Assembly (NCBI RefSeq): GCF_003076275.1
Contig: NZ_CP029064.1
Coordinates: forward strand, 372,001-436,000
Direction of reading: 5' to 3'
Length of the DNA: 64,000 nucleotides
DNA from: Microbulbifer sp. A4B17
GTDB lineage: Bacteria; Pseudomonadota; Gammaproteobacteria; Pseudomonadales; Cellvibrionaceae
The notes beneath the pieces are model-generated. The model had not been told where the DNA came from. It worked only from the letters and a program-made list of their open reading frames with translations, and searched no databases. Numbering within the stretch: position 1 is the stretch's first letter; each line of letters starts with the position of its first letter. This document shows positions 31,240 through 51,173 of the stretch, piece after piece. Position numbers and translations under genes: made by a program.

Positions 31240-31256
31240 GGGGAGGTAGCTCTAGA

Positions 31257-31277: not shown

Positions 31278-31290
31278 GGGGAGGAGGTGC

Positions 31291-32141: not shown

Positions 32142-32167
32142 GTGCAATGGGCTTTAGCCCATTGCAC
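32142..32167 (-). terminator. Hairpin after the class II aldolase gene
   Basis: An 11-bp perfect stem GTGCAATGGGC / GCCCATTGCAC with a 4-nt loop lies 10 nt after the minus-strand stop. A U tract is absent. Confidence 0.5.
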
Positions 32168-32176
32168 AAAAAGCAC

Positions 32177-32971: not shown

Positions 32972-33174
32972 GTTTATCTCCAATTCTCACAGCAAGTTAT
33001 TTTAATTTCACAAAAATTGAATAAATATTCCTTTTCTATTTCTCAATCGTGAAATTATTTTTAAAAACCTAACTCTTAATGTTTCGATCTTTGTCGAATT
33101 TATGTTGGTGGCATATCCCTATGCCCAAGCTTTCTCCAACAACACCTGTGAGCGGGTTGATAACTGCTTGATAA

Positions 33175-35726: not shown

Positions 35727-36338
35727 TCAGCAGGCTGTCAGGCAGTATTCCTCAGGGAGCGGCACCAGGTAATAGGTGCCGCTAAAAGTAGTTACTATGG
35801 TGAGTCCAATCACCAGTCCAACTGCCATTACAGCACCCGCACTGCGATCCAGGGCTGCAGTCGAAAATTTTTCTCGAAATATCCACCGTAAACCACAGGC
35901 GAGATGAGTAAAGAAAGCTGCCACTGCCAGGGTGTAGTAGGGGGCAAAAAATAGTGGGTAGGCTTGTGGTTGCAGGCCGGCTGCAGCAAAAAAGAAATTT
36001 GTGTCCAGGCCCTGTACCAATCTGCCATACATTACCGCCGAGATATGGAACATTAAAAAGAATGCCAGATAGCCGCCGGATACTGCTTGGGCATGATCAA
36101 AAAATCCGCGGCGCTGCCCCCACCTTTTTACAATAAATGTAATCCCCGATCCCACCTGGAAAAGGGCACAGGCCAATAGCAATGGCTCGATAATTTGAGT
36201 CCGGTAAATTTGTCTGAAACTCTGCATAAAGCTGATATGGGCTTCAATACCGCTAAGGGCTACCAGGTGATTAGTGATGTGGGAGAGTACATACAAGCTG
36301 ATTATAAGGGCGGAAAGCCGGTGTAGTGTGTGAAGCAT
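35727..36338 (-). CDS. Cytochrome b-like membrane protein (SdhC/FrdC-like)
   Basis: A 203-residue protein with five predicted transmembrane segments at about residues 6-25, 50-70, 88-110, 130-152 and 172-192. Histidines within or near the helices (LHRLSALI, SHITNHL, AHISF, FHISAVMYGR, FFTHLACG) suggest bound haem b, as in succinate dehydrogenase or fumarate reductase anchor subunits. No flavoprotein or iron-sulfur partner gene is nearby, so it is an orphan. It converges with epmB, 24 bp apart. Function is not established. Confidence 0.6.
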   Translation of the reverse strand: MLHTLHRLSALIISLYVLSHITNHLVALSGIEAHISFMQSFRQIYRTQIIEPLLLACALFQVGSGITFIVKRWGQRRGFFDHAQAVSGGYLAFFLMFHISAVMYGRLVQGLDTNFFFAAAGLQPQAYPLFFAPYYTLAVAAFFTHLACGLRWIFREKFSTAALDRSAGAVMAVGLVIGLTIVTTFSGTYYLVPLPEEYCLTAC

Positions 36339-36949: not shown

Positions 36950-37675
36950 TTGCGCCCGAAAAAGGAAGTTATTCAGGCCCTGCCAGAAATGTTGAATGCA
37001 CAGACGATCCAGCAGGTTAAGGAGCGCGTACAACGTTCCATTAGTGCAATAGGATTTGATTATTATCTTATTGGATTGGAAGATCCAGCCGGAGCGCTCG
37101 ATCAGTATTCGGTAGAAACCAATTACCCCAACGACTGTATCGAGAGCTATAGCCGGCAAAAATGGGTAACCCGCGATCCGGTCGTACGCCATTGCCGCCA
37201 GTCGCCAATCCCCATGATTTGGCACCGGGCACATTTTCCCGGTGAAGCTGGTCGAATATATGAGGAGTCCGAATCCCACGGTATTGCCTCCGGTGTTTCC
37301 ACGGCACTGCGCGGCGCCAGGCAGAGCCGGTTGATGATGATTTCTGTTGCCAATGGTGCCACTTACACTCCACAGCTCGGCGGTTGGTTACAGGAAACCA
37401 TGCCGATGATTCAACTGCTCGCTTCATACGCTTATGAGGCGATCAGCCGTATTGATCAGGGGGCCGCCGCAATTGAAATAGGGCTCACCCGCCGCGAAGG
37501 GGAGTGCCTGCATTGGGCGGCAGTGGGCAAGACATCCTGGGAGACTTCCAGGATTCTTGGCTGTTCCGAGGCCACTGTGAATTTCCATATTCGCAATGTG
37601 ATACAGAAACTCGGTGTTTCCAACCGACGCCAGGCTGTAGCCAGGGCACTCTCCATTGGTTTAATCAGACCTTAG
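36950..37675 (+). CDS. LuxR-family solo regulator with variant autoinducer pocket
   Basis: A 241-residue regulator. Residues ~15-165 form an autoinducer-binding domain and ~172-235 a LuxR-type HTH (LTRREGECLHWAAVGKTSWETSRILGCSEATVNFHIRNVIQKLGVSNRRQAVARAL). Aligned by eye with TraR/LuxR, five of the six signature residues are kept: Tyr61, Asp70, Pro71 (in RDPVV), Trp85 (PMIWHRA) and Gly113. Trp57, which holds the lactone carbonyl of acyl-homoserine lactones, is Cys (NYPNDCIESY). No luxI lies in the window. The start is a TTG with GGAGAAGG before it. It converges on the ligase gene with a 4-bp overlap and probably controls the operon through the box at 51336-51355. Confidence 0.88.
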   Translation: MRPKKEVIQALPEMLNAQTIQQVKERVQRSISAIGFDYYLIGLEDPAGALDQYSVETNYPNDCIESYSRQKWVTRDPVVRHCRQSPIPMIWHRAHFPGEAGRIYEESESHGIASGVSTALRGARQSRLMMISVANGATYTPQLGGWLQETMPMIQLLASYAYEAISRIDQGAAAIEIGLTRREGECLHWAAVGKTSWETSRILGCSEATVNFHIRNVIQKLGVSNRRQAVARALSIGLIRP

Positions 37676-39210
37676 GCTAACACTACGCCGGCGCGCGCTG
37701 TTTGCTGACCGATAAAGCTGCGAAGTTCCTGCCGCTTGAGTTTGCCACTGGGGGTACTGGCAATATCCTCTACGAGCTCAATGCGGTCGGGGCAAAGAGC
37801 GCGGGGATGCAGGTGCTCTCGAATTCTTTTCATCAGGTCGTTCACCAGTGCGGTTGCCGAGTAGCCGCTATTATTGGCTACCACATAAGCGCGCAATCGG
37901 GTCAGCCCTTCGTCCGTTTCGATAGGCAGGGCCGCCGCTTTGACTACCCGTTTATCGGTGAGTAAAAACTCCTCAAGTTCCTGAGGGCTTACCCAGTGTC
38001 CAGCCACTTTAATTCGCTCACTGTCGCGGGAAATAAAATGAAACCCGTCATTACCTCGCGTGAAAAGATCACTGGTTGCAAAGGGCTGCTTTGCAGTTTG
38101 TAGTTCGCCGGTAGCGGGTGCCAGGTAGCCGAGCATCAGGCAGCCCTGGGATAAAGACAGACTTATATCGCCACCGTCACCGTGAGGGGTTTCTGTGTAG
38201 CGAAATCCCTCCACTTTTTGCAAAGCCCCTTCAGCACCTGCCAATTCGGATAAATAGGGAGCGAAGGTTTCAGTCGTACCAATTGAGTCGAGAATTTGTG
38301 CGCCGCTCCAGGCCTGCCAGCGTCTGCGTACTACAGGAGGTAATCTCTCACCGGCAGAGAGTGACAGTCGTAAATGCTCTAGCTGATATTCGCGTTCCGC
38401 GCGGGACATTAATAAATGATAGAGGGTTGGTACGGCGAGAAATACACTGACTTTTTCCGCTTCGATAACCTCGAGAAAATCGGTGTGCTGTTTCCACTGG
38501 GGTAACATAATTGCAGTGCCACCCCGGCTCAGGGGAACGTGCAGCCCCTGCAAACCAAAGGAAAAGAAGGGGCCGGTACTGGCAAGTACCCGGTCCTCTG
38601 CACGGATATTCCACAGTGGGCGACTGACTGTGCGCTCGAACTCCCAAAAAGAGCGGTGGCTGTGCACACAGAGTTTCGGTTTCCCGGTGGAGCCTGAAGT
38701 GGCCAGCACCAGGGCGGGTCTCAGGTCCAGGTCTGCCGCTAGCCGACTGATTTCACTGGTCTCCACCGGCCCCACTTCCAGGTTGTCCAAGTCCTCTATT
38801 GATGACATAGGCTCGAAAGGTGCGCGCAGGTTTGAGCCATCCACAGTGGGATCTGCCAGGATCACTTTGGGGTCAAAATCCTCCCATAAATTGCGGTAGT
38901 GTCCCTGGGGCAGGGCCGGGTGAACCATAAATGGAAGGTGGCCGCTGCGCATGGCCGCCAGCCAGTAAACGGTATTTTCCAGTGTGGCCCCGCCCACCAG
39001 AGCGATGCGCTGCTGGGTGCGGCTACCGGCCAGATGTAAGTTCAGATCAATGGCTGCGGCAAAGGTCAGCTGTTGCAATTTTCGGTAACTGACACTGCGA
39101 CGACCGGAGGGTCCGATTTCAATCAGCGCAGGGTAGTCGCCCCGGCCATCGCGAACATGGCGGTCGACCAGCAGGTCGACACATCCTTGATTGGAATCTA
39201 GTGGGTTCAC
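37672..39210 (-). CDS. Adenylate-forming ligase (benzoate:CoA ligase-like)
   Basis: A 512-residue ANL-superfamily enzyme. [23 protein letters not shown] (~residue 165) is the P-loop-like motif, DSIGTTETFAPYLSE the A5 region, and the catalytic Lys is in TPSGKLKRQELR at the C-terminus. The overall plan (SYRKLQQL, LVGGATLENTVYWLAAMRSG) recalls aryl-CoA ligases. No carrier-protein domain is attached, so the product is an acyl-AMP or acyl-CoA. I infer that it activates the aminohydroxybenzoate made by the operon. The GTG start has AAGGAGGAG 7 nt upstream. It is the last gene of the operon, 94 bp after the aldolase gene; a small inverted repeat (39234-39247) lies in that gap. Confidence 0.85.
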   Translation of the reverse strand: MNPLDSNQGCVDLLVDRHVRDGRGDYPALIEIGPSGRRSVSYRKLQQLTFAAAIDLNLHLAGSRTQQRIALVGGATLENTVYWLAAMRSGHLPFMVHPALPQGHYRNLWEDFDPKVILADPTVDGSNLRAPFEPMSSIEDLDNLEVGPVETSEISRLAADLDLRPALVLATSGSTGKPKLCVHSHRSFWEFERTVSRPLWNIRAEDRVLASTGPFFSFGLQGLHVPLSRGGTAIMLPQWKQHTDFLEVIEAEKVSVFLAVPTLYHLLMSRAEREYQLEHLRLSLSAGERLPPVVRRRWQAWSGAQILDSIGTTETFAPYLSELAGAEGALQKVEGFRYTETPHGDGGDISLSLSQGCLMLGYLAPATGELQTAKQPFATSDLFTRGNDGFHFISRDSERIKVAGHWVSPQELEEFLLTDKRVVKAAALPIETDEGLTRLRAYVVANNSGYSATALVNDLMKRIREHLHPRALCPDRIELVEDIASTPSGKLKRQELRSFIGQQTARAGVVLA

Positions 39211-39304
39211 GGCAGGGCTCCTCCTTAATTGCCTGCTGGCACCAGCAATTGAGCTGGCGCACTATGTTTTTGGTGCAGCGCTGAGCTGCATTTCCAGCGA
39301 TTTT

Positions 39305-40123
39305 TTATAGGGCCAATTCCGGCTCTTGTTGGCTGAGAGTCAATGAGCGGGCGAAGCCGTTTTCCGATAGCACGTCATCGCGGAATACGCTTTGCAGTTG
39401 CATCAGGGTTATGGCGGGGTTGGAGCGCTGGAATACATTGCGCCCAACACAGATGCCTCCGGCCCCAAACTCGACTGTCGCCGCAGCCAGCTCGATTAAC
39501 GCGCGTTCACCTGCCAGGGCACCACCGGCAAATAACACGGGTGTGTGGTCCTGAATTCCGTCGATAAGCTCGGGGATGCGTTGCAGGTTTTGCGGTGCCG
39601 CCACTTTGAGTGCATCGACGCCCAGCTCTACAGCGGCGCGCATAAAGTGACGCAGGCGCTCAAGGCCCTGGGCATCGCTGCCCTTGTCATAAACCATATT
39701 CAGCACTGGCATTCCCCAGGCGTGGGCTTCATCCACAACGTGGCCGATCAAGCGCAAATTGTGGGATGCGGTTGCTGCGGAGAAATTGGTTTGGATCGAA
39801 ACGGCATCAGCCCCCAGGCGCACTGCAGCTTCCACGGTGGTGACCAGCTGTTTGAGGTCCGGCTGCTCATCGGTGCAGACCGAACCATTGAGGTGAATAA
39901 TCAGCCCACAGTTCAGCTTGCCGCCGAGACGCTCCGCCAGGCCCTTGTGCAGGACAATGCCAGTTACCGCGTCTGTGTCGAGCCAGCTGAGCATTTCATC
40001 CGGCCGATGGATACCGGCAATAGGGCCCATAGTCAGGCCGTGATCCAGGGGGACCACCAACGCTTTGCCGGATTGAGGGTCTACAAAGCGCTTCCAGCGC
40101 CTATTTCGTGCCATTTCAGTCAT
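39305..40123 (-). CDS. DhnA-type class I aldolase, GriI-like (3-amino-4-hydroxybenzoate pathway)
   Basis: A 272-residue DeoC/DhnA-type TIM-barrel aldolase. Key features are VVPLDHGLTMGP (active-site Asp, ~residue 27), MVYDKGSD (Tyr, ~143), LGVDALKVAAP (Schiff-base Lys, ~170), VLFAGG and GAGGICVGRNVFQ (phosphate-binding loops). Relatives include class I fructose-bisphosphate aldolases, archaeal ADH synthase (MJ0400) and GriI. GriI joins aspartate semialdehyde to DHAP in 3-amino-4-hydroxybenzoate synthesis. The DHQ-synthase-II gene in the same operon favours the GriI role. AAGGAG lies 8 nt before the ATG. Confidence 0.85.
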   Translation of the reverse strand: MTEMARNRRWKRFVDPQSGKALVVPLDHGLTMGPIAGIHRPDEMLSWLDTDAVTGIVLHKGLAERLGGKLNCGLIIHLNGSVCTDEQPDLKQLVTTVEAAVRLGADAVSIQTNFSAATASHNLRLIGHVVDEAHAWGMPVLNMVYDKGSDAQGLERLRHFMRAAVELGVDALKVAAPQNLQRIPELIDGIQDHTPVLFAGGALAGERALIELAAATVEFGAGGICVGRNVFQRSNPAITLMQLQSVFRDDVLSENGFARSLTLSQQEPELAL

Positions 40124-40154
40124 TGAAATTTCTCCTTAACTTTTGAGCTGGCGG

Positions 40155-41477
40155 TTAGGCGTCGGAGAGCACCGCGCGAATCGGCCTGCTCAGTATTTTG
40201 CGAGTGGGTATGGCGCTGGCGACAGCTGCAATCACTACCACGGCGCAAGCAGTTGCCAGGTAAATGGGAATGACCCAGGCGAGATCGACGGGAATAGCGT
40301 TAGTTGAGCCCGGCGGTGTCCACATAATTTGTGCAGCGCGCACTGCCCAAACAATCGCAGCGGTGATGGCGATACCCAGGGCCGTGGCGGCCAGGGCCAG
40401 CCAGCTGTTTTCCAGAGCCGTCAGTGTCAGCACAAATCGGCGGGTAAAACCCAGGCTGCGCAGGGTGGCGAACTCCCGTGAGCGTTGGGAAAAGTTCATA
40501 TAGCTGGCATTCAACAGGCTGGTAAAGCCAATGGCGCAGGCGATGATTGCAATAAAGTTGAGGAAGCCGCTTAGCACCGCTTTAAATTGGTGGTAAAAAG
40601 CGGCGCGATCGGACCACAGGAATACCTCGATATCGCTGAGTCCCGCCTGATGCAGCTGTTCCTTGATTCGGGCCTGTGCCCTGCTGACATCGGCTGTATC
40701 GCGGAGTAAAACGTGATACTCACTCACGTCGGAAGTGTTCAGCAGGGCCTGGGCATCGGCCATTGGCAGAACTACGAGTCGGTCATTTATCTCTTTAATA
40801 CCCCAGTCCATGATGCCGGTGGGTACCGCGCGTATTGCGTTGACCCTGGCGGTTCCACGGGTGGTGGCGGTCAGCTCCAACGGTCCGGGCGGGCAGTTGA
40901 TGGGGCGTGACTCAGGGGTGTCCCCAGGTTGCAGCGGCGCAAAGCCCACCGAGGGAATTTCGCAGCCGAGTATCGCTGCCAGCCCCTGGCCAAGTATCAG
41001 GGGTTCAGCGCGGGTTTCCATCCACAGTGGAGTGCCCGCTACCACATCGTACTCATAGGCAGGCCCCTTGATTGTGCGGATTTCCTGCACATCCTGGCCG
41101 ATACCGGCGAAGATACTGCTTACCTGGGCATTGGAGACCATGCCGGAAATACGCAGGATACGAGCGCTGGCGACAACGTCTGGATCAGATGCCAGCACTG
41201 AGCTGATATCCTCTTGCAGCTCGGAGGTAAGCGGCAACTGCCCAGCACCCTCGACCTGCCTAGCTAGGTCCGAACCGGGCCTTTCAATCACCAGGTGGCC
41301 TCGTGCACCCCAGTGCATAAAGGCATCGCGAATCAGCTCCACACTGGACTGGGTGTAGCCGGCCAGAAGGCACAGAGCGAGTACCGAGATACTCATTACC
41401 ACAAAAGTGCCCAGGGTTTTGCGTCCCTGGCGCCACAAATTGCGCAGGGACATTGTCAGCAATAATTTAGCGGTCAT
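40155..41477 (-). CDS. ABC transporter permease, FtsX/MacB-like
   Basis: A 440-residue permease with the MacB/LolCE plan. One N-terminal transmembrane helix (LGTFVVMSISVLALCLLAGYT) is followed by a ~240-residue periplasmic domain and three C-terminal helices (~residues 285-310, 335-360 and 392-420). The FtsX signature NFSQRSREFATLRSLGFTRRFVLTLTALEN is present. It partners the fused permease upstream and the ATPase. Such transporters pull substrates (lipoproteins, lipids, peptides) from the inner membrane or periplasm. It starts 8 nt after the previous gene. Confidence 0.9.
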   Translation of the reverse strand: MTAKLLLTMSLRNLWRQGRKTLGTFVVMSISVLALCLLAGYTQSSVELIRDAFMHWGARGHLVIERPGSDLARQVEGAGQLPLTSELQEDISSVLASDPDVVASARILRISGMVSNAQVSSIFAGIGQDVQEIRTIKGPAYEYDVVAGTPLWMETRAEPLILGQGLAAILGCEIPSVGFAPLQPGDTPESRPINCPPGPLELTATTRGTARVNAIRAVPTGIMDWGIKEINDRLVVLPMADAQALLNTSDVSEYHVLLRDTADVSRAQARIKEQLHQAGLSDIEVFLWSDRAAFYHQFKAVLSGFLNFIAIIACAIGFTSLLNASYMNFSQRSREFATLRSLGFTRRFVLTLTALENSWLALAATALGIAITAAIVWAVRAAQIMWTPPGSTNAIPVDLAWVIPIYLATACAVVVIAAVASAIPTRKILSRPIRAVLSDA

Positions 41478-41485
41478 GTCGGTTC

Positions 41486-43495
41486 CTAAAGAGTCATCAG
41501 TGTGTCGACGGTAAACAGGCTTTCCGGCGGGTTGGCCAGTGATACCTGGGCGTACTCAAGTACGCTGTAGCGGTCGGGAAAGTTCGCGTTGACGATCTTC
41601 ATCTGCGACACAAAAGGCTGTTTCCTATCTCCCACCTGCACTTGATTGCCGTACTCAAACAGGGCGATTTTGAGGGGCATACCGCTGGCGGTGAGGAATT
41701 CCGCTTTCACTCCCAGCAGAGTGTTTTTATCGAGGTAATAAACGATGGATTCATAGGTGGCGCTGTCAGTAGCAGCGGTGAGTTTCAGCTTGTGGCAGGG
41801 CGTCCCATTAATTTCAGCGCTACCCAGATATTCCGGCGTGTAGTCGCGGGCATACTGGGTGGAGGCGATATCGCCGTTGGCTGCCTCACCTACGAGTCGT
41901 TGTTGCGGGCTGATACTGATGGGTTTGCGCAGTCCCGGTTTGGCGTACCACATGGCGCGGGAGGCGATAAGTATTTTCTCACCCCGGTAACGTCTGGGCG
42001 CAGTTGTCATAGCCAGGGCCCGTCCATCCCGCACGGCGATATCGTAATCGGTCTCGGTGGCGCCGGCGGGGTCTTCAGTATGAATGCGCAACTTCCACTG
42101 GTAGCTGCCCCAGCCTCCACGCGCCAGGTCTGCCTCGCGCAGCCAGTGGCGCATGACTTCCTCATCTGGAGTGGCGGTAGCTGTCACTTCCACTGGCTCC
42201 ATTGCCTGGGGTTGCATGGGGAACAGGGTCAGGGCCAATACCACACTGGCTGTGGCAGAAAGTAATTGGGTGAGCGGCACACTGCGGCGCCCGGGGCGAA
42301 CTTCTCCGCCAACCTTTTTGCGCGCTGTAAGCAGGGCTCCGAGAGTGATACCGGCTCCGACACAGGCAATTGCGCCGAGGGCAGTAGACAGTGGAAGGTC
42401 TAGGTCCAGCCGGGCCGCTTCAGAGATACGCGGCAATTGAGTTTCAACACCGGCGGCGCCGAGGGCAAGCATCGCAATATAAGCCGAAATGGTGGCGACC
42501 ACTGCTGCAGCGATGGTGGTTAGAAGGCTCTCCCTGACAAACAGGCCGGCGATGCGTTTACGGCTAAAGCCGAGCGAGCGCAGCATACCGATTTCACGGG
42601 TGCGATCGGCGACATTCATCGCCAGGGTGTGCTGGATGGTGGTGAGGGCAATAGTGAACACCACCAGGCCGGTAAAGGCGAAGACCATGTTAAAGAAACC
42701 CATAAAACTGGTGTAGAGCTGGCCGATCTGGGGGTGATCCCATGTGGTCACTTCAAAGCGGCCCGGCGCCTTGTTCTCCAGGTCTGCCGCCAGTTGCTGG
42801 CGGAATGGGCCACTGTGCTGGCGATCGTCGAGTTGAATCACCACCCTGGAGACGGCATCGGTATCGTAGAGGGATTGTAGAAGCGCCAGCGGTGCCTTGA
42901 GCCCCTTGTCTTCGATAGCTTCAATACCGGTGGAGAAGTCACCGAGTAGGGGCGCCTCGATTGCATTGATCCGGTTGGCGTAGGAAGCACTGAACATCTG
43001 CAGCTCGGTGCCTTTGGGGGGATAGCCGAGCAGATCCTGCAGTTGGGTGGTAAGGAGCAGCCCATCCTCCGGCGGTGGAGTGGCGGCCAGGGGGCTGGCC
43101 TCTTGCAGCGCTCGTTCAAAAGCCGGGTCTATGCCCCGGGCCAGGAATACGGCATTTTCATTGCCTGCCTGCACTACTCCCACGCCGGCCAACTGGTTGG
43201 AGGCGCGCAGGAAGTGGGGCAGCTCGGCGCTCACCCTATGGATCAGGGCCTGCTCACTTTTATCCAGCGAATACTGGGCTGGGGAGGCGGCCAGCTGTTC
43301 AGGGCCATCGGTGCGATACACCTGCACATGGGCATTGGCGTCGCGATAGATTACGACCGAGGCCAGTGACCCTTCAACGAAGCGGATATAGCTGAGAAAC
43401 ATCAGCACCGCAAACAAACCTACGGCCACCGCTATCACAGTGGCGAAGGTGCGCCTGCGGTCGCGGTACAGGTTGCGAAAAGCCATTGACCACAT
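41486..43495 (-). CDS. FtsX-like permease fused to a C-terminal LolA-like domain
   Basis: A 669-residue fusion. Residues ~1-400 are an FtsX/LolC-type permease: N-terminal helix at ~15-35, periplasmic domain, VADRTREIGMLRSLGFSRKRIAGLFVRESLL, and helices near 262-285, 315-340 and 368-390. A further hydrophobic segment (LLSATASVVLALTLFPMQPQAM, ~409-430) acts as an anchor or internal signal. Residues ~440-669 resemble the outer-membrane lipoprotein-sorting (LolA_like) family: ALAMTTAPRRYRGEKILIASRAMWYAKPGLRKPISISPQQRLVG, then DYTPEYLGSAEINGTPCHKLKLTA. Normally these are separate proteins. The frame is continuous and TGATG-coupled to the ATPase gene; an adjacent GTG at 43498 is an alternative start. 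Confidence 0.85.
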   Translation of the reverse strand: MWSMAFRNLYRDRRRTFATVIAVAVGLFAVLMFLSYIRFVEGSLASVVIYRDANAHVQVYRTDGPEQLAASPAQYSLDKSEQALIHRVSAELPHFLRASNQLAGVGVVQAGNENAVFLARGIDPAFERALQEASPLAATPPPEDGLLLTTQLQDLLGYPPKGTELQMFSASYANRINAIEAPLLGDFSTGIEAIEDKGLKAPLALLQSLYDTDAVSRVVIQLDDRQHSGPFRQQLAADLENKAPGRFEVTTWDHPQIGQLYTSFMGFFNMVFAFTGLVVFTIALTTIQHTLAMNVADRTREIGMLRSLGFSRKRIAGLFVRESLLTTIAAAVVATISAYIAMLALGAAGVETQLPRISEAARLDLDLPLSTALGAIACVGAGITLGALLTARKKVGGEVRPGRRSVPLTQLLSATASVVLALTLFPMQPQAMEPVEVTATATPDEEVMRHWLREADLARGGWGSYQWKLRIHTEDPAGATETDYDIAVRDGRALAMTTAPRRYRGEKILIASRAMWYAKPGLRKPISISPQQRLVGEAANGDIASTQYARDYTPEYLGSAEINGTPCHKLKLTAATDSATYESIVYYLDKNTLLGVKAEFLTASGMPLKIALFEYGNQVQVGDRKQPFVSQMKIVNANFPDRYSVLEYAQVSLANPPESLFTVDTLMTL

Positions 43496-44220
43496 CACGC
43501 CACCTCGCTTTCGTCAGTTTTTAAGCTGGTCAGCGGAGCTTCAGCGGCACTGTCGGTCAGGCGGCCATCGCGAAGCTCCACTACACGTTTGACGTGTTGC
43601 AGCAGACGCTGGTCGTGAGTGGAAAAGACAAAGGTGACGCCCTGCTCCCGGTTCAGCTGTTTCATTAACTCCACTAGGGAGAGGGCGCTGGCGGTGTCCA
43701 GGCTGGCGGTGGGCTCATCTGCCAGTATCAATTTTGGTTCTGTCACCAGTGCCCTGGCCACTGCGACCCGCTGCCGCTGGCCGCCGGACAGCTGGTCCGG
43801 GCGGAAGCCGGCAAAGCGACTCAGGTTAACAGCGGCCAGGGATGCCTGGGCGCGCTGACGCATTTCCGTCTTACTCAGTCCGTGCAGGTAGAGGGGCAGC
43901 ATGACATTTTCCAATGCGCTCAATACCGGCACCAGGTTGAAGTTCTGGAAAATAATGCCGTAGGTGCGGGAGCGCAGGGTATCCAGGTCGCGATCGTTGA
44001 GTTTGCTGACCGGTTGACCGGCCACGCGGATCTCGCCAGAGGTAGCGCTGTCGAGGCAGCCGATCAGATTCAGCATGGTGGTTTTACCGCTACCGCTGGG
44101 TCCGGTTATCGCGACAAAGTCGCCTTTTTGCACGGTAAAGTTGACGTTGTTGAGGGCGGTTACTTCGACTTCGCCGAGCAGGTAGCGCTTGGTCACAGAT
44201 TCAAATTCGACCAGGTTCAT
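43495..44220 (-). CDS. ABC transporter ATP-binding protein (LolD/MacB-like)
   Basis: A 241-residue ATPase with Walker A GPSGSGKTTMLN, Q-loop IFQNFNLVPVLSALENVMLPL (the LolD/MacB type), signature LSGGQRQRVAVARAL, Walker B LILADEPTASLD and H-loop VFSTHDQRL. It energises the two FtsX-type permeases encoded immediately downstream. The ATG at 44220 has GGAG at 6 nt; an ATG at 44232 with a weaker site is the alternative. The stop overlaps the next start (TGATG). Confidence 0.93.
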   Translation of the reverse strand: MNLVEFESVTKRYLLGEVEVTALNNVNFTVQKGDFVAITGPSGSGKTTMLNLIGCLDSATSGEIRVAGQPVSKLNDRDLDTLRSRTYGIIFQNFNLVPVLSALENVMLPLYLHGLSKTEMRQRAQASLAAVNLSRFAGFRPDQLSGGQRQRVAVARALVTEPKLILADEPTASLDTASALSLVELMKQLNREQGVTFVFSTHDQRLLQHVKRVVELRDGRLTDSAAEAPLTSLKTDESEVA

Positions 44221-44258
44221 CTTGTTCTCCATTTTTTCGCTCTATTCGTGTGTTCCGT

Positions 44259-45509
44259 TCAGAAAAAGAGGTCCACAGCCAGGTAACTGCTGCTGGTCAC
44301 CGGTTGGCTCAGCTCCAGATCCTCGTTGGCGCGGCTGCCGGAGAGACCTAAATAGAGGGTGACGCTGTCGCTTGGGCTGTAGGAAAGTTCGGCAAAACCG
44401 CTGCTGCTGGACTGATCCAGGCCCTGAAGTAATCTGGCGGTAAGGCTCCAGCGGCGGTCGCCAAACAACTTTGGCCAGGTGGTTTGCAGCAGGGCATAGT
44501 GGCGCTGTACAAACGGGTGCAGCGGGCGGTTGCGAGATGGCCCCCGGCCCGCTGACGGCAGGGCGGCGAGCTGCGGGTTGCGCAGTTCGGCCTCGCTAAG
44601 GGCGTAGCCGTTATAGATAAGCTCCAGGCCGGTTTCGGCGCCGGAAGTGGCGCCGTAGCGCAGATTGATCACACCGTCCCAACGCCAGTGACTGCGGTTT
44701 TGCGTCAGCTCGATACCTGTGTCACTGGATTCCGCGTAACCCCGGGAGGCGGCAAACTCTGCACCGAGGGTCCAGGCATCGCCGAGGCCGTGTTGGACGT
44801 AACCGCCGGCATAGGGCTGGAAACCGCCACCACCAGCGGCGACAGCGCCGACAGTTGTCACCTGCCCCTCAACCCAATTCCACTCGGCTCGGGTCAGCTG
44901 GAAGCTGCCTCCGCTGTCGATGGCGTCTACGGTATCCAGGCGGGGGTCCGCCACCAACAGGCTGGCGCGCGCCCGGGCGGAGATATCAGTACTGGCAAAA
45001 GCCATGGGTTTGCCGGGAATATCCCGGCGCGGTGTCACGGCGCCGTTGTCGGGAAACAGTCGGTTCGTAGGGCTGTAGAGCAATGATGGCCCCCAGCCCT
45101 GCAGGCGCTTGCCAGCGCCGAATCGGGTTCCCTCTTCTGTTTCGTAAAGCAGGTAGCCTTCGGCAAACCAGTCGGGGTAAGGATCTGGCATTGTTGCCGG
45201 ACGCTCATCTTTGTCCGCAGCAAGGCGGGGTTTGAGAACGATTCGGGTGCCGTCGCAATAGCCTTTGGTGCAGCGCATTTGTAAATCCAGGCGCAGCTCG
45301 GCGGCGCTGCGCCGGGTGTCGTCATCTCCCAGAGTCTCAGCCAATCGCTCACGTTCATAGATCGCCTGCAGGCTCAGTTCGTAGTCACTGCGCCAGGTTT
45401 TGCTATTGCTGCTGGTATCGAAGGCCCACTGGGTCTGGCCCAGGACAGGCATAGCCACAGTGAATGTGGCCAGGGCAATCAGGCGCTTTCCAAGGCTTTG
45501 CTTTCGCAC
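44259..45509 (-). CDS. Outer-membrane beta-barrel protein candidate
   Basis: A 416-residue protein with a signal peptide (KRLIALATFTVAMPVLGQ). Many alternating strands are rich in Tyr, Trp, Gly and Arg (FGAGKRLQGWGPSLLYSPTNRLFP, YGATSGAETGLELIYNGY, WSLTARLLQGLDQSSSSGFAELSYSP). The C-terminal strand ends LAVDLFF with a terminal Phe, the mark of BAM-inserted barrels. The family is not recognised with certainty. Because it is co-encoded with an ABC exporter and LolA-like domain, it may be the outer-membrane acceptor or channel. The GTG start overlaps the end of the ligase gene by 31 bp with GGAGG 7 nt upstream, suggesting coupling. Confidence 0.72.
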   Translation of the reverse strand: MRKQSLGKRLIALATFTVAMPVLGQTQWAFDTSSNSKTWRSDYELSLQAIYERERLAETLGDDDTRRSAAELRLDLQMRCTKGYCDGTRIVLKPRLAADKDERPATMPDPYPDWFAEGYLLYETEEGTRFGAGKRLQGWGPSLLYSPTNRLFPDNGAVTPRRDIPGKPMAFASTDISARARASLLVADPRLDTVDAIDSGGSFQLTRAEWNWVEGQVTTVGAVAAGGGGFQPYAGGYVQHGLGDAWTLGAEFAASRGYAESSDTGIELTQNRSHWRWDGVINLRYGATSGAETGLELIYNGYALSEAELRNPQLAALPSAGRGPSRNRPLHPFVQRHYALLQTTWPKLFGDRRWSLTARLLQGLDQSSSSGFAELSYSPSDSVTLYLGLSGSRANEDLELSQPVTSSSYLAVDLFF

Positions 45510-47254
45510 GAGGCTGCCTCCGTGATTACCGTTCGCGATTGCTGCACTATCGGGTTGTAACGCTCGCGCAGGCGGCGCTTAAGAGTTTTACCGGTGGCAC
45601 CTATGGGGAATTCAGCCCAGTCGATCACCCACAAGTAATCCAGTCGCTGATGGCCCGGGAGCAGGGCATTGAGGCTTTGACGCAGGGATTCTGCATCTGT
45701 CAGGTCGACACCTGCCTGCGGAGCAACAACGGCTGCCGGTACTTCGGGCCCTTCCGGGTGAGGACGTAAACCGAACACACAAGTGTCGAGAACACCGCCT
45801 TGCTTTAACACAACCTCCTCCAGTGGCAGGGTGTAAACCGGCCCTGCGGCACTGTGGATCACGTCCACTTCCCGGTCCAGGTGAACGATTTCTCCATCGC
45901 TGCCCTGGCGCACCATATCCCCGGTAAACCACCAGCCATCCAGCGTTGAGGCGTAGTAGACATCATGGGCATTCCAGTATCCGTCGAACATGCTCTTGCC
46001 CTTGATCATCAAGCGCCCCACCTGGCCTTTTTCCACAGGAACACCATCGGCGTCGGCAATCTTGATCATCGGACCCAGGGGGGTCTTGCGTCCCACGCGG
46101 CGGTCGAAGTGCTTGGTCCAGGGGGTAGTGATTCGCAGGAGCGCCGCGATTCCCACTTCACTGGAACCGAGGCCATCCACAAACAGTGAGCCGCGCCAGG
46201 GCAAGCCCAAGCGGGTGAAGAAGGAGCCGTGAGCGATAAATGCGCGCTGCTGCACCTCGTGGCTGGCATCGGCGGTAGTACCCCAGATACGCACGCTGTC
46301 CAAGGGCTGGTCCAGGGCCCCGGATTCCATCAGGCGGGTGTAAGTGATAGGGAACCCAAAAAAAACACTGGGCTTGCGGTTGTGTAACTGTGACACCAGC
46401 TCCCTTGCTTCCAGCTTGTCATCCAGGATTACGTGTATCCCCATCATCAACATGCCGTGCAGGTAGAGATGGGAAACCTGGTGGTTAAGTGGCAGGGCAA
46501 AGCAGGCCAGGTCACGGGTGGAGATTGGGTTGAACAGCACTATAGAGCGCAGGGACTGAGCGATGCCTTCCTGTTTCAGAATCACGCCTTTAGGTACGCC
46601 GGTGGTACCCGAGGTGTGGACGATATAGAGCGGGTCGGCGGCACCTCGCGGGGATTCTGGCACCGGGGCCAGAGGTTCAAGCAGCAATACAGCCAGGCTG
46701 CGTACCTTTGGAGCCAGGTGGTTGTTGCTATCCGTAAGAACTGTACCGGTCAACCCGCTAAATAAAGTGCTGCCAGCGCCGTTTGCGGTGAGTTTTTGCC
46801 AGCCACTGGTATCTGTTACCAACAGTTTCACCCCCATGCGCTCCATATAACCTATCGCTGTCTCGGGGGCGACATTGCCGTTGATGGGCACTGCGATAGC
46901 TCCGATACGCAATGCGGCGACGGAGAACAGGAAGTAGTCGAACTGGTTGGCTTTGTAGATTGCTACCCGATCCCCTGCACTGACACCCAGGTGGCTCCAA
47001 CAGGCCGATAGCTGGCGCACGGTGCGGAGTATCAACGCGGCACTCCAGTGTTGTTCACGGCTCCAGCTAAGTGGTCGGGTGAGTTCGATCAGCTCGCGGT
47101 CACCGTGGCGGCGCGTGGCAAATTCCAGTGCTTGATCGACGCGGTTGTCCCAGCTGGCCAGCAGGGAGAGACGCCCCCAGTAACCGAGTCGCAACAAAAC
47201 AAAAGTCAGGTAGCCCAATACCAGGATTAAGGGGACAGCAATGGCGTAGCTCAT
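45479..47254 (-). CDS. Membrane-anchored adenylate-forming acyl ligase
   Basis: A 591-residue ANL-superfamily ligase. An N-terminal transmembrane segment (YAIAVPLILVLGYLTFVLL, residues 3-21) precedes the catalytic part, as in membrane-bound acyl-CoA synthetases. Motifs: IVHTSGTTGVPKGVILKQEG (~residue 210), DGLGSSEVGIAALLR (~362), WFTGDMVRQGSDGEIVHLDREVDVIHSAAG (~442), and catalytic Lys in IGATGKTLKRRLRERY. The odd A8 region (Asp-Val-Ile-His in place of the usual Lys-Gly motif) is a deviation. It may activate a fatty or aryl acid at the membrane for the condensation-type enzyme encoded 6 nt upstream. Substrate unknown. Confidence 0.83.
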   Translation of the reverse strand: MSYAIAVPLILVLGYLTFVLLRLGYWGRLSLLASWDNRVDQALEFATRRHGDRELIELTRPLSWSREQHWSAALILRTVRQLSACWSHLGVSAGDRVAIYKANQFDYFLFSVAALRIGAIAVPINGNVAPETAIGYMERMGVKLLVTDTSGWQKLTANGAGSTLFSGLTGTVLTDSNNHLAPKVRSLAVLLLEPLAPVPESPRGAADPLYIVHTSGTTGVPKGVILKQEGIAQSLRSIVLFNPISTRDLACFALPLNHQVSHLYLHGMLMMGIHVILDDKLEARELVSQLHNRKPSVFFGFPITYTRLMESGALDQPLDSVRIWGTTADASHEVQQRAFIAHGSFFTRLGLPWRGSLFVDGLGSSEVGIAALLRITTPWTKHFDRRVGRKTPLGPMIKIADADGVPVEKGQVGRLMIKGKSMFDGYWNAHDVYYASTLDGWWFTGDMVRQGSDGEIVHLDREVDVIHSAAGPVYTLPLEEVVLKQGGVLDTCVFGLRPHPEGPEVPAAVVAPQAGVDLTDAESLRQSLNALLPGHQRLDYLWVIDWAEFPIGATGKTLKRRLRERYNPIVQQSRTVITEAASCESKALESA

Positions 47255-47260
47255 GGTGCA

Positions 47261-48673
47261 TCAACTCCGGTGAGTGGGTGACAGCTCGTCCAGCAGCTTG
47301 CGCAGCTCACCCAGGAAGGGTGCTGCGAATTCTGCGTGGATGTCGGCAAACGCCGAGCGGCGATAAACCAGATCCAACTGCATCCGGCCATTGACCGTGG
47401 GCGTGTAGAGAATGAAGTCGTAGGGCGGCACCAAGCAGCCGAAACCCACGTAGCTTTGGGTTTGGTGCTCATCTGAGCCAAAAGAAGAGAAATCCTCTTC
47501 TATTCGCCCGGGATTGGAGTAACAGGCATTGGTACCGAGTGCCCGGTTCAGCAGGCGCCGGGCTAGGCCGTGCAGGGGGCGCAGACGCAGTATCGGCAGC
47601 AGGGTTTCCAGTCTGGCGAGTTCAGTGCTGACCCGATCATTGCTCCGAGCTTCTGCCATGGCACTGTGCATGCTTTCTATCAGCGCCGGGGTGCTCTGAC
47701 CGGTGCGCAGGCGAATCCCGATGGGGATCAGGTAGTTGCGGAAGCTGTGATCGTAGCGTTGATCAATTAGCCGGCGCAGGCTCACCGCGCAGGTCATGCG
47801 CAAATAGCCGGATTTGTGCCGGCCGGAGGTTTCCATCAGTCGCGCCAGGGCGGTACACAACAATGTGTTGATAGTGACCCCATTGGTTTTGGCTGTGCTG
47901 GCCAGGCGCTCTTCCAGGGCTCTGGGCATCAGGCTCTGGAAAAAATCCAGGTGTCCGATTTCCCGGTTGTTATCGTCAGTCTCCCAGCGCTGTCCGCGCA
48001 GCTTTACCGGCATGCCACTGTCGTTGCGCATCAGATCGAGTCCCACGCTGGCGAACGCCTGTAGCCAGCGATAGCCGCGCTTCAGGGGGCGGAACCAGTC
48101 TGGACGAATTTCCGGCAGTGGTGTGAAGGGCAGTGGTTGATTGGTGGCAACGGCACCAGGCACGCCGCTAATATGGGCGTAGTGATCGATAATCGCGCGC
48201 AGCAGCAGGCAGTCACTGCGGGCGTCGGCGACACCGTGGTGGCTGCTCAGGTAGACGCAGGAGTTGTGTCCATTGCCACCGTTGACCAGCAAAACCTGAA
48301 GGGGCGGACGGTCGCACCACTGCAGGCGGTGCGTTGAGCTGAAGTCCATCAGCAACTGGCGAAAATCGTGGTCGTTGAAATCGCAGGCGCCTACATACTC
48401 CAGGCAGTGGACCCATTGATAGGACCCGGTATTTACTTCATATAGCTGCTGGCCCTTGGGGCGGGTGCGCAGCAGCGGTATCTGGCGCACCGCGCGCTGC
48501 ACACTCTGCTCCAGCAACTGTGGTTGAATCCGCCCACTGACAATCAGGATCTGGTTGGTGTTGACGTTGGCCAGCTCACCTAAATGGATAAAAAACTCGG
48601 CCATGGCATCGATGGGCTGGGGGGCCGTAAAGGCGACATTGGCGGCTGTTGTAGATGCGGTGAAACTGTCCAT
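47261..48673 (-). CDS. Stand-alone condensation-domain-like acyltransferase
   Basis: A 470-residue protein of the NRPS condensation/WS-DGAT/PapA acyltransferase superfamily. The catalytic motif is SSHHGVADARSD (~residue 141), an HHxxxDA variant of HHxxxDG, keeping the catalytic His and Asp. An N-terminal segment (PIDAMAEFFIHLGE, VSGRIQPQLLEQSVQRAVRQIPLLRTR) matches the first half of the fold and GVTINTLLCTALARLM the second. It would join an activated acyl group to an amine or alcohol. The operon encodes no carrier protein, so CoA thioesters are the probable donors. The ATG at 48673 has GAGGAG 6 nt upstream. Confidence 0.8.
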   Translation of the reverse strand: MDSFTASTTAANVAFTAPQPIDAMAEFFIHLGELANVNTNQILIVSGRIQPQLLEQSVQRAVRQIPLLRTRPKGQQLYEVNTGSYQWVHCLEYVGACDFNDHDFRQLLMDFSSTHRLQWCDRPPLQVLLVNGGNGHNSCVYLSSHHGVADARSDCLLLRAIIDHYAHISGVPGAVATNQPLPFTPLPEIRPDWFRPLKRGYRWLQAFASVGLDLMRNDSGMPVKLRGQRWETDDNNREIGHLDFFQSLMPRALEERLASTAKTNGVTINTLLCTALARLMETSGRHKSGYLRMTCAVSLRRLIDQRYDHSFRNYLIPIGIRLRTGQSTPALIESMHSAMAEARSNDRVSTELARLETLLPILRLRPLHGLARRLLNRALGTNACYSNPGRIEEDFSSFGSDEHQTQSYVGFGCLVPPYDFILYTPTVNGRMQLDLVYRRSAFADIHAEFAAPFLGELRKLLDELSPTHRS

Positions 48674-48683
48674 AGCCAACTCC

Positions 48684-49793
48684 TCAGATCACTTCGGCAG
48701 TTGCAGCCTTTTCGGCCTCACTGGTTTTGGAGTTTGTAGGTTTGCCGGCATACCAGGCACAGAGGCCCCAGACTTCTTCGGCGGATAGAGGTTTGACAGG
48801 CTCGGTGCGCCCGGTAACGGCATCCAGGCGGGAGCGGTCGAAGTGCCACTCGATGCGCATAAAGCGCTGGTTGAGCCTGACGGCCCGATCGAATTTTTGC
48901 TCGACAGAGGTGGTGGGATTACCCAGGTGTGCCTTCACCCCGGCGACATCCGCCCAAATCTGCACCATTTTTTCCGCCGGTACTGCAACGCCACCGGAGC
49001 AGTGGAATACCTCAAATTTTCCGGGATCTTCGCTGCGTAAGGTCAGTGAACAGGCGTCAGCGCACAGTTGGTCCACGGAAACCAGGTCCAGGCGCGGCTC
49101 TGGCAACAGGTCGATGGCGAGATCGCAATTCCCGGCGCCGGCGACGGCCAACATGGCATCCTGGAACATGTAAAAACCAAAACCGTTGCGGTGCACCCAG
49201 TGGGTGTGGCGGTGGCCCACAACTACGCTGGGGCGGAAGATAGTGATCGGCAGGCTGTTGCGCAGTGACAGCAGGTGCAGGGAGTGTTCTGCACTCCATT
49301 TTGTAGTCTGGTAGGTATTCACCATCTGGCTGAAGGGGTGCAGCTCCTCCTTCACTTCACCGCCAGCCATACCTGCGACATAGGCCGTGGAAACATAGTA
49401 AAAACGTCGGCATCTGGGGGCCTGTTGCTGAACGGTTTGGTAGAGCCGTGCGGTATTGCCCACATTGGTGTTAATGGCGGTTTCCAGTTTATGAGGCGAA
49501 TAGCTCATCTCCGCTGCCACATGCCAAACCTCGGTAACACCGCTGAGGTCGGTTGTGGCGAGGATATTTTCCAGCTCGCTGAAATCGGTATCGATCACAG
49601 TCAGGTGGTTCTCAACCGCGCCGCTCACATCCAGCTGGCAGCCGTGCGCAGCGGTGAGTACGGCATTAATCGTGCGGATACTGTCTGGATCGTTGCGGGA
49701 TAGGGCGATGACTTTAACACCGCGAGCTAAAAGGTTTGCCGCCAGTGCGCTGCCGACAAAGCCGGTTGCGCCGGTAATGAGTACCTGGTGCAC
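48684..49793 (-). CDS. Thioester-reductase-like SDR (NAD_binding_4 family)
   Basis: A 369-residue extended short-chain dehydrogenase. The nucleotide site VLITGATGFVGSALAANLLARG is at the N-terminus. VWHVAAEMSYSPHKLE and FYYVSTAYVAGMAGGEVKEEL (~residue 140) carry the Ser/Thr, and Tyr-x3-Lys is in NTYQTTKWSAEHSLHL. ITIFRPSVVVG is typical of thioester reductase and fatty acyl reductase domains. It may reduce an acyl thioester to aldehyde or alcohol, or act as an ordinary epimerase/dehydrogenase. The GTG at 49793 with AAGGAG 7-8 nt upstream is a better start than the GTG two codons earlier, where the spacing is too short. Confidence 0.8.
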   Translation of the reverse strand: MHQVLITGATGFVGSALAANLLARGVKVIALSRNDPDSIRTINAVLTAAHGCQLDVSGAVENHLTVIDTDFSELENILATTDLSGVTEVWHVAAEMSYSPHKLETAINTNVGNTARLYQTVQQQAPRCRRFYYVSTAYVAGMAGGEVKEELHPFSQMVNTYQTTKWSAEHSLHLLSLRNSLPITIFRPSVVVGHRHTHWVHRNGFGFYMFQDAMLAVAGAGNCDLAIDLLPEPRLDLVSVDQLCADACSLTLRSEDPGKFEVFHCSGGVAVPAEKMVQIWADVAGVKAHLGNPTTSVEQKFDRAVRLNQRFMRIEWHFDRSRLDAVTGRTEPVKPLSAEEVWGLCAWYAGKPTNSKTSEAEKAATAEVI

Positions 49794-49859
49794 TTTCACA
49801 CTCCTTGTATTTCCGATCGGTGGTTTGGCGGAGGCGCAGCGCGCCTCCGGGCGGGAAAA

Positions 49860-51173
49860 TCAGAGTTCGATAATGTGTTCGTCGACTTTCACACCGACGT
49901 GGCGGCCGGGCTCAGTGCCGAATCCCAACACGCGATCGCCGGGCCTTAGCTCGGTGACATTCAGCGGGGTCGCCTTGTCGGAGAACACGCGCACATGCCA
50001 GTCGTCCTGCATGATGATGTTGACCTTGCGGTTTTGCGGGAAGGTGGCTTCGATCAGTAGCAGCGGGCGGATTTCCGTTTTGGTGCGCCCCACGTAAACC
50101 TGGCGGGTTTCGCCTTTGGAGTTCACCGTGGTCAGTTGGCTGCCGGCACGCAGCTCGCTGATATAGCTGGTGCGATCATTGCTTTGGAATACATAGCTGT
50201 GTACGGAAGCGGCGTTGATACGGAATGGGCGCAGCTCCATATAGGGCAGGTGGAACACTTCCGGGCAGCAGAGAATACCGCCGGTAGAGGTGGAACCCAC
50301 CAGGATGCCCTCATCCGGATTGAACATATGGGTAGTATCGATACAGGCTCGATAGCCCAGACCCAGATGAGTGATGCGATCGATGACGCCCACTTCAATA
50401 TCAATTTTTGGTGAAGTTTGCGCATCCATCTTGTTGGCAAAACGGTCGAACTGCTCCATGGATGTGAAAGAGGCGAGGACGCCGTCACTGCCCAGTTCCA
50501 GGACGCCGAGCGCGATTACTGCATCGTCCACATCCTGGTTGACCTCTTTCAGCAGAACGGTGTTGGTTTTGTGCAGTTCTGCAATTACCAGCTCAAGAGG
50601 AATATTGGTGGGATCTTTGAAGGACACCATCAGGTGGTCATAGTGCATGCCCTGGTGAAAAGACGTGTGCAGGCTCTCGGCATTATCTACATGAATACGC
50701 AGACTGGTGCGCAGGCCGGCTTCACTGGCTGCGCTCAGTATCTGGGCCTCGTAGCTGGATACGATCGCGGGTTTTTCTTTACCGGCAGTTTCCTGTAACA
50801 GCTTGCCGAATTTTTCCCACTCACCCATATCCTCCAGGTGAACCACTCGCTGCAACCTGGGGGAAACGGCTTCATTTAAAAGCTCAAAGTTATCGGCGTA
50901 GAGGACAATCCCGTTGTAACGGCCCTGACCTAGACGCTGGATAATAGCCTTGCGGGTTTCTTCATCCAGTGTCTTGAGCACATTGGAGTCATACCAGAGC
51001 ACGTGCTCGCGATTTTCGCGCACTTCTGTGGTAGCGGGAAAAAGCGCGGTGTTGGCGGGCGGAGCCGGCTCCAGTGGCGTAGTGGGCTCGCGCTTCGATG
51101 GGGAAGCTTTTTCCTGTGCACTTTTGCGGGCTTTTTTGGAAGTGGCAGGGCGTTTGCTCTCAACTTGTTCCAT
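49860..51173 (-). CDS. 3-dehydroquinate synthase II homologue, GriH-like
   Basis: A 437-residue protein. Residues ~1-55 are a Lys/Pro/Ser-rich, probably disordered extension. The remainder is the archaeal-type DHQ synthase II family: VLWYDSN start, VSFKDPTNIPLELVIAEL, EVGVIDRITHLGLGYRACIDTTHMFNPDEGILVGSTSTGGILCCPEV, PYMELRPFRINAASVHSYV, and C-terminal IIMQDDWHVRVF and PGDRVLGFGTEPGRHVG. In methanogens it makes dehydroquinate from the ADH synthase product; the bacterial homologue GriH makes 3-amino-4-hydroxybenzoate from the GriI product. With a GriI-like aldolase in the operon the latter is more likely. It is the first gene of the ten-gene operon. Confidence 0.88.
   Translation of the reverse strand: MEQVESKRPATSKKARKSAQEKASPSKREPTTPLEPAPPANTALFPATTEVRENREHVLWYDSNVLKTLDEETRKAIIQRLGQGRYNGIVLYADNFELLNEAVSPRLQRVVHLEDMGEWEKFGKLLQETAGKEKPAIVSSYEAQILSAASEAGLRTSLRIHVDNAESLHTSFHQGMHYDHLMVSFKDPTNIPLELVIAELHKTNTVLLKEVNQDVDDAVIALGVLELGSDGVLASFTSMEQFDRFANKMDAQTSPKIDIEVGVIDRITHLGLGYRACIDTTHMFNPDEGILVGSTSTGGILCCPEVFHLPYMELRPFRINAASVHSYVFQSNDRTSYISELRAGSQLTTVNSKGETRQVYVGRTKTEIRPLLLIEATFPQNRKVNIIMQDDWHVRVFSDKATPLNVTELRPGDRVLGFGTEPGRHVGVKVDEHIIEL

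Follow-up and report, generated by a model that had tools for sequence, protein, structure and literature searches.

What does a block of ten co-oriented genes in Microbulbifer sp. A4B17 make, and by what route would the product leave the cell? The block, whose genes we call J to A in order of transcription (J-I-H-G-F-E-D-C-B-A), fills positions 37672-51173 on the minus strand of a 64,000-nucleotide stretch of contig NZ_CP029064.1 (positions 372,001 to 436,000; hereafter the window). An earlier note, made from the sequence alone, had read it as an operon producing and exporting a derivative of 3-amino-4-hydroxybenzoate (3,4-AHBA), with B and J as counterparts of the GriI/GriH pair. Much of that reading came through: the ten open reading frames are real and correctly placed, and an aldolase/synthase pair of 3,4-AHBA type, an aryl-activating enzyme, a condensing enzyme and export genes do stand together in one operon. 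On two points the analysis departs from it: B and J lie outside the main Streptomyces GriI/GriH-like clade, and G leans to AvaA6-diazotase-like proteins. The reading that we favour, tentatively and as somewhat short of an even chance, is of a probably quorum-controlled operon that makes and exports an ester-type conjugate of 3,4-AHBA, the amine of which is further processed by G.

Pfam and NCBIfam matches bear out the family names first given to the genes: a dehydroquinate synthase II (DHQS-II) homologue, a thioester-reductase-like short-chain dehydrogenase/reductase (SDR), a condensation-like enzyme, two AMP-binding enzymes, an ATP-binding cassette (ABC) ATPase, two FtsX permeases and a DhnA-type aldolase. 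The spacing, described as mostly 0-70 bp with several overlaps, needs a small correction: the intergenic distances are J-I 60, I-H 4, H-G 6, G-F -31, F-E 26, E-D -4, D-C 8, C-B 31 and B-A 94 bp, so that six of nine fall within 0-70 bp, the overlaps number two and one gap is of 94 bp. A promoter scan gave no sigma-70-like site upstream of J.

A genome scan with J yielded 19 loci, in which A was located separately, and one further Microbulbifer (G036) was added. J-to-B order is found in 15 of the 19 scanned loci, and J and B occur in other settings in the remaining four. Stretches were fetched from 16 operon-bearing relatives: five Microbulbifer, Pseudomonas sp. sp1636, a gammaproteobacterial metagenome-assembled genome (gamma MAG), four Chromobacterium, a Paludibacterium, two Paraburkholderia and two Cupriavidus. 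All 16 keep the order J to A (in three of them J falls outside the stretch, and its position was taken from the separate J scan), and the gaps from I to A mostly range from small overlaps to 87 bases; with order and tight spacing thus conserved, the ten-gene set is more than a chance assembly. As judged from the ratio of non-synonymous to synonymous substitution rates (dN/dS), 0.04-0.12 for nine genes, J left out, compared with those of M. variabilis, the operon is under purifying selection. J is present in only 6 of 48 Microbulbifer genomes, this one counted, and the G+C fraction of the operon is 0.58 against about 0.49 in four 20-kb samples of the genome (range 0.46-0.52); this patchy occurrence and deviating composition fit horizontal spread. 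The conserved cluster is best read as a form of a type already known, the 3,4-AHBA clusters. No description of the ten-gene operon was found in the literature searched, access to which was limited, so this is not proof of its absence from print.

That B and J make 3,4-AHBA is supported, though not proven, and we think it likely from profiles, alignments and trees. GriI and GriH form this acid from aspartate semialdehyde and dihydroxyacetone phosphate (DHAP) (PMC12125101; here and below, citations by PMC number refer to the accessible parts of those papers). J scores 249 bits with the NCBIfam model of the BagC/FevH AHBA synthases and 232 with the best DHQS-II equivalog, and a lean of 16-35 bits in the same direction is seen in all four J-related proteins scanned. 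The lean is 169-432 bits in three Streptomyces proteins and one gammaproteobacterial protein (L084); a gammaproteobacterial control, L086 (partial at 270 aa and under its own cut-off), scores 139 with the BagC/FevH model and 307 with the DHQS-II model. The J tree, built without archaeal DHQS-II sequences and with long branches flagged, places J beside Streptomyces AHBA-synthase-like proteins and away from the L086 group at 100/100. On scores and tree J leans to the AHBA-synthase side, away from the gammaproteobacterial group whose best NCBIfam match is a DHQS-II model, and the outcome by which the earlier note would have been refuted did not arise. For B, alignment with MJ0400 shows conservation of the residues matching Asp33, Tyr153 and Lys184, which we take to be functional there, the lysine forming the Schiff base.

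Certain results weigh against this assignment. The best model for J is the broad DHQS-II family, NF002625, at 303.5 bits (cut-off 375), a model that Streptomyces AHBA-synthase-like proteins pass as well; J lies below every curated cut-off, and its AHBA-synthase lead over the DHQS-II equivalogs is only about 17 bits. For B, profile scores do not separate ADH synthase (2-amino-3,7-dideoxy-D-threo-hept-6-ulosonate synthase) from GriI-type function, as the ADH-synthase subfamily model that B matches also gives high scores to GriI-like aldolases of Streptomyces. Neither protein is nested within the main Streptomyces GriI/GriH-like clade: 20 proteobacterial and Bdellovibrionota rows stand apart in both trees, at 100/100 for B and at 89/68 for J, where two Streptomyces rows (L115, L116) are their sisters at 99/99.

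Other relatives of J came to light in the scans. The gammaproteobacterial genome that holds L084 (G194) has a J+B pair lying inside the Streptomyces clade in both trees, with 583 bits for the BagC/FevH model, and so carries a GriI/GriH-type pair. Three small gammaproteobacterial genomes of one family (L086, L087, L088) encode AroB and, besides it, a DHQS-II-like protein; no homologue of B lies within about 1.5 kb of the latter. The A4B17 genome itself has a second DHQ-synthase domain (L080, at 3.299 Mb), part of an open frame of 1141 aa that may encode a further biosynthetic cyclase. The J homologue of a Sinorhizobium medicae plasmid (L121) belongs to a nonribosomal peptide synthetase cluster, which also encodes a SagB-type dehydrogenase, a phosphopantetheinyl transferase and a protein resembling 4-hydroxyphenylacetate 3-hydroxylase.

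The enzymes that would act on the acid are A, H and I. A matches TIGR02262 at 187 bits, under the cut-off of 375; it is nearest to benzoate- and anthranilate-coenzyme A (CoA) ligases, its closest solved structure is benzoate-CoA ligase 2v7b, and its K490 is invariant in an alignment of 17 rows. H146 and D150 of the HHxxxD motif of H are likewise invariant (17 rows), so that HxxxD is kept, and the AlphaFold2 (AF2) model of H, at a pLDDT of 85, has the condensation-domain fold. With the wax ester synthase/diacylglycerol acyltransferase (WS/DGAT) model H scores 31.7 bits, far under the curated cut-off of 310. It is present in all 17 operon genomes and is the sole full-length match in its own. I is closest among solved structures to the MxaA thioester reductase 4u7w, and its S137, Y163 and K167 are invariant (17 rows). 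The profiles do not support gene I as an AvaA7-like denitrifying reductase: of 79 models, the top 25, which extend down to 3.6e-5, do not include NF058621. The ten genes include no carrier protein, which makes CoA thioesters the likely currency of the pathway. As an aryl ligase and a transferase, A and H are a good candidate pair for the paraben- and bulbiferate-type esters of Microbulbifer.

G, called a membrane-anchored ligase in the earlier note, does have an N-terminal hydrophobic stretch, but resembles AvaA6-like proteins more closely than it does the ordinary ligases in the comparison. Among NCBIfam models the AvaA6 diazotase comes first, at 197 bits (cut-off 975), followed by an acyl-CoA ligase subfamily at 192. 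D329, H332 and E333 are invariant in 17 rows; the DxxHE segment that they form is present in all ten G rows aligned with other ligases and in five of six AvaA6-like or PDB rows (8tf7 has DAAHA), but is missing from all 15 rows of ordinary ligases (A, CaiC, E. coli FadD and paralogues). An unrooted tree splits G together with six AvaA6-like rows from these 15 at 100/100, and G averages 28.0% identity to the six and 19.9% to the ordinary ligases; the six were recruited through G or J, and the grouping is therefore with AvaA6-diazotase-like proteins, authentic AvaA6 and CreM not being among those compared. In a tree that also contained L054 and L057, two rows that are probably misread, G did not join the AvaA6-like group; with both removed, G and that group lie on the same side of the split. 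AvaA6 is also the best model for ligases that lie beside J and B elsewhere: 317 bits in Pseudoduganella, 526 in a Bdellovibrionota MAG and 303 on a Klebsiella plasmid. We infer that the DxxHE segment may mark diazotases, and that G would act on an aromatic amine.

The four genes between G and B look like an export set. E, C and D resemble LolDCE, yet score under the curated Lol cut-offs; their likeness to LolCDE/LolA and MacB-type exporters consists of a LolD-like ATPase (E), two LolCE/FtsX-like permeases (C and D) and a LolA-like domain in D. They differ from LolCDE/LolA in that this domain is fused to a permease, and in the placing of the genes among biosynthesis genes. F, a beta-barrel candidate from the start, has no Pfam or NCBIfam match, yet its AF2 model (pLDDT 72) has 18 strands and Foldseek aligns it with OprD/BenF/AlgE-type barrels at a TM score of about 0.55. 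To judge from these profiles and models, the set would suit the delivery of a lipophilic product to the outer membrane or across it.

Genes flanking A and J extend the picture; the earlier note had mentioned none of those on the A side, nor the LolA-like domain of D. In 12 of the 16 relatives A is followed by an oppositely oriented gene for a LuxR-type regulator, and a LuxI-like gene lies ahead of J in all five Chromobacterium/Paludibacterium loci; the operon is probably under quorum control. A search of the A4B17 genome for LuxI with PF00765 was uninformative, this model being silent in all 14 control genomes too. Past the regulator, an oxidase of the heme-oxygenase-like diiron (HDO)/CADD-like type is present in 12 of the 16, a class II aldolase-like protein in ten and an Sdh_cyt-like small membrane protein in eight. 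Six candidate iron ligands of the oxidase are invariant in 16 rows, and it is nearest to the CADD-type 4-aminobenzoate synthases and BesC. It was rejected as a self-sacrificing 4-aminobenzoate synthase: the positions of Tyr27 and Lys152 of CADD, which we take to be the sacrificial residues, are occupied by Leu and Ile. Some HDO enzymes perform nitrogen oxidation and, by analogy, the accessory oxidase may do so. Its homologues are also found near J and B in Pseudoduganella and in two Bdellovibrionota MAGs.

From the observed families, catalytic residues and gene order we infer every substrate, product and regulatory link of the following scheme. B would join a four-carbon and a three-carbon unit, probably aspartate semialdehyde and DHAP, and J would close the ring to give 3,4-AHBA. 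A would turn this acid into its CoA thioester and H would move the aroyl group onto an alcohol—an alkanol, or the benzyl alcohol of AHBA—most likely supplied by I through reduction of a thioester. The membrane-anchored, AvaA6-like G would act on the aromatic amine, by diazotisation or another ATP-driven step, with the HDO-like oxidase of most relatives oxidising nitrogen or feeding a nitrogen oxide to G. Export would fall to the E/C/D transporter, which has a LolA-like domain of its own, and to the barrel F; together they would bring the product, a lipophilic one, to the outer membrane or across it.

What is known of Microbulbifer chemistry suggests where such a product might belong. The window strain very probably makes parabens: A4B-17 is a known source of 4-hydroxybenzoate and of the corresponding butyl, heptyl and nonyl esters, and 23 other Microbulbifer strains tested gave 4-hydroxybenzoate and no parabens (PMC11285056). 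Feeding methyl to butyl alcohols to A4B-17 raises the matching paraben, with unclear results for heptyl and nonyl; a carboxylesterase (GM001349) was proposed for ester formation, and the heptyl/nonyl alcohol pathway proved hard to identify (PMC6305291). The GM001349 primer matches exactly at 1,467,538 in this genome, away from the operon. Microbulbifer sp. WMMC-695 makes bulbiferates, esters of 3-acetamido-4-hydroxybenzoate (PMC11285056), an acid known as a shunt product of 3,4-AHBA pathways (PMC11429834). Parabens and bulbiferates thus come from one genus and are both alkyl esters, the acid being 4-hydroxybenzoate in the former and its acetamido derivative in the latter, and the accessible parts of both reports tie no gene cluster to either (PMC6305291, PMC11285056). 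The product of the operon may be related to the bulbiferates, and possibly to the strain's parabens.

Several facts weigh against our favoured reading, beyond those already given for B and J. To our knowledge, no operon carrier identified here has a known AHBA product. The lead of the AvaA6 model over the acyl-CoA ligase models is narrow for G and is reversed in one Paraburkholderia G (180 against 188), and a solved protein of G's group, 9xb8, was named fatty-acid-CoA ligase FadD by its depositors. Within the part of the genome covered, the ten genes and ten of their neighbours, there is no nitrite-forming gene (CreD/CreE), and no HDO gene lies in the stretch examined for four of the 17 genomes (Pseudomonas, the two Cupriavidus and the gamma MAG, where the contig stops 2.6 kb past A). 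Finally, the esters known from A4B-17 lack an amine, and butyl paraben rises in this strain when 4-hydroxybenzoate alone is fed (PMC6305291).

This last result speaks against any need for deamination in making parabens, and it bears on the boldest form of the idea, in which the operon would itself be the paraben source: 3,4-AHBA made without the shikimate pathway would be esterified by A and H and lose its amino group by G-dependent diazotisation and reduction, with the HDO-like oxidase replacing CreD/CreE as source of nitrogen oxide. Diazotisation-dependent deamination operates in the ava and cma pathways (PMC10777205), and if such a route were used here, bulbiferates would be shunt products whose amine is acetylated before its removal; we consider it very unlikely. 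A simpler route to alkyl esters, in our view fairly unlikely, would have G as a fatty-acyl-CoA ligase and I as a fatty acyl-CoA reductase producing an alkanol, from which A and H would make alkyl 3,4-AHBA esters, the bulbiferate core, and with 4-hydroxybenzoate the parabens. It draws on the thioester-reductase-like character of I, on the almost equal score of the acyl-CoA ligase subfamily as G's second NCBIfam match, on the FadD name of the solved protein closest to the G profile, on the rise of parabens with fed methyl-butyl alcohols or 4-hydroxybenzoate and the elusive heptyl/nonyl alcohol pathway (PMC6305291), and on the occurrence of bulbiferates in the genus (PMC11285056), but G has the DxxHE of the AvaA6-like group and splits with that group from FadD, CaiC and 13 other ligase rows.

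Two further readings part from an ester of 3,4-AHBA altogether. The pair might make the acid while A and H build an amide-, benzoxazole-type or other N-linked compound, as in the closoxazoles, whose clusters combine two AMP ligases with what are putatively an ADH-synthase-like aldolase and an AHBA synthase (PMC12118335). The Bdellovibrionota relatives pair J and B with an amidohydrolase and AMP-binding proteins, and condensation-fold enzymes can also form amides; the ten genes, however, include no amidohydrolase, A is of benzoate-CoA ligase type and H is kept in all 17 genomes, and we regard an N-linked product as distinctly unlikely. The other possibility is that B and J provide an archaeal-type route to dehydroquinate and that the operon product is not AHBA-based, as might be supposed from B scoring highest for ADH-synthase models and J for the broad DHQS-II family. 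Streptomyces GriI-like aldolases and AHBA-synthase-like proteins score high on those same models, however, and J leans to AHBA synthase; moreover, dehydroquinate does not depend on the pair, since the A4B17 genome and those of all 16 relatives with the operon encode an ordinary AroB. This route was set aside as extremely improbable.

The favoured reading, an ester-type conjugate with a processed amine, has partial parallels in known systems. The closoxazole clusters (Clostridium cavendishii clx, Pyxidicoccus fallax pfx) are also non-Streptomyces and share the types of aldolase, synthase and paired AMP ligases named above, but lead to benzoxazoles by way of a condensing amidohydrolase (PMC12118335). 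The operon has none, and instead encodes a condensation-like enzyme, a thioester-reductase-like SDR and, for export, the ABC/LolA/barrel set. The bagremycin and ferroverdin clusters (bag/fev) likewise use a DhnA-type aldolase and an AHBA synthase to make 3,4-AHBA, followed by an ester-type condensation (PMC6692506); the scores of B and J fall far short of the cut-offs set for BagB/FevI and BagC/FevH. The avenalumic acid and p-coumaric acid clusters (ava, cma) and that of cremeomycin have in common with the operon a 3,4-AHBA origin and an ANL-type (adenylate-forming) diazotase, AvaA6/CmaA6/CreM, the profile nearest to G. They differ in deriving nitrous acid from CreD/CreE-type enzymes, none of which is among the ten genes, and ava and cma also in having carrier proteins and a type II polyketide synthase, equally missing from the ten, and AvaA7, with whose model I does not rank (PMC10777205, PMC11429834).

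J and B homologues in other surroundings resemble one or other of these systems. On a Klebsiella michiganensis plasmid (L120, 7752-13685) they lie beside an AvaA7-like reductase, a major facilitator superfamily (MFS) transporter and an AvaA6-like ligase; the reductase, an SDR, matches NF058621 at 3.6e-23, and the locus looks, from these matches, like another gammaproteobacterial 3,4-AHBA cluster with a diazotase/denitrifying-reductase pair. Two Bdellovibrionota MAGs (L019, 1-6362; L020, 9938-16703) combine J, B, an amidohydrolase and AMP-binding proteins with an HDO-like oxidase, a closoxazole-like arrangement with the oxidase added. Pseudoduganella rivuli (L014, 7019-15750) has J, B, an AvaA6-like ligase, an MFS transporter, a second, weakly AMP-binding protein, a pyridoxal phosphate enzyme, an HDO and a class II aldolase: a different cluster of similar parts.

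The operon extends the 3,4-AHBA-type clusters to a conserved form that spans Gamma- and Betaproteobacteria and has a Lol-like exporter of its own, in which a permease and a LolA-like domain make up one protein. It offers a testable gene set in a very probable paraben producer for which the accessible part of the genome paper proposed only a carboxylesterase (PMC6305291). That an AvaA6-like enzyme and a diiron oxidase recur as a pair next to AHBA genes suggests that a branch for nitrogen processing exists beyond the actinomycetes.

Table 1. Genes of the operon and its accessory genes, with positions in the window and the basis of each assignment.
Gene	Position	Strand	Assignment	Basis
J	49860..51173	-	DHQS-II family, probable 3,4-AHBA synthase, 437 aa	Pfam DHQS 4e-90, NCBIfam, tree
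I	48684..49799	-	extended SDR, thioester-reductase-like, 371 aa	Pfam NAD_binding_4 2e-27; TIGR01746
H	47261..48679	-	stand-alone condensation/WS-DGAT/PapA-like acyltransferase	profiles, alignment, AF2 model
G	45479..47254	-	ANL enzyme, N-terminal hydrophobic stretch, AvaA6-diazotase-like branch	NCBIfam, motif, tree
F	44259..45509	-	outer-membrane beta-barrel, 18 strands predicted	AF2 and Foldseek
E	43495..44232	-	LolD/MacB-type ABC ATPase	profile matches
D	41486..43498	-	FtsX/LolE-type permease with C-terminal LolA-like domain	Pfam FtsX, LolA_like
C	40155..41477	-	FtsX/LolC-type permease	profile matches
B	39305..40123	-	DhnA/ADH-synthase-like aldolase	profile matches; alignment with MJ0400
A	37672..39210	-	benzoate/anthranilate-CoA-ligase-like aryl ligase	TIGR02262; 2v7b
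R	36950..37675	+	LuxR-type autoinducer-binding regulator, convergent with A	profile match
accessory	35727..36338	-	Sdh_cyt-like small membrane protein	just under Pfam cut-off
accessory	33175..33885	-	HDO/CADD-like diiron oxidase	profiles, alignment
accessory	32177..32983	-	class II aldolase/adducin-like protein	NCBIfam PRK07090, 448 bits, above cut-off 261

The island sits at, and splits, the locus for modification of elongation factor P (EF-P). Within 30286-35702 of the window, efp and an EpmA-like gene flank it, whereas an EpmB-like radical SAM gene is found in among the accessory genes (the names epmA and epmB being our assignments from family and context), while in four other Microbulbifer the EpmB-like gene is on the J side, the arrangement from which the placement of the island at this locus follows. 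Divergent from J and upstream of it is a gene for a PAS-GGDEF-EAL protein (window 51904-53991), homologues of which are found upstream in four other Microbulbifer. The A protein of M. taiwanensis (L060, 10758-12380) is 542 aa long, some 30 residues over its relatives, and its match falls in two pieces that meet near query residues 327-342.

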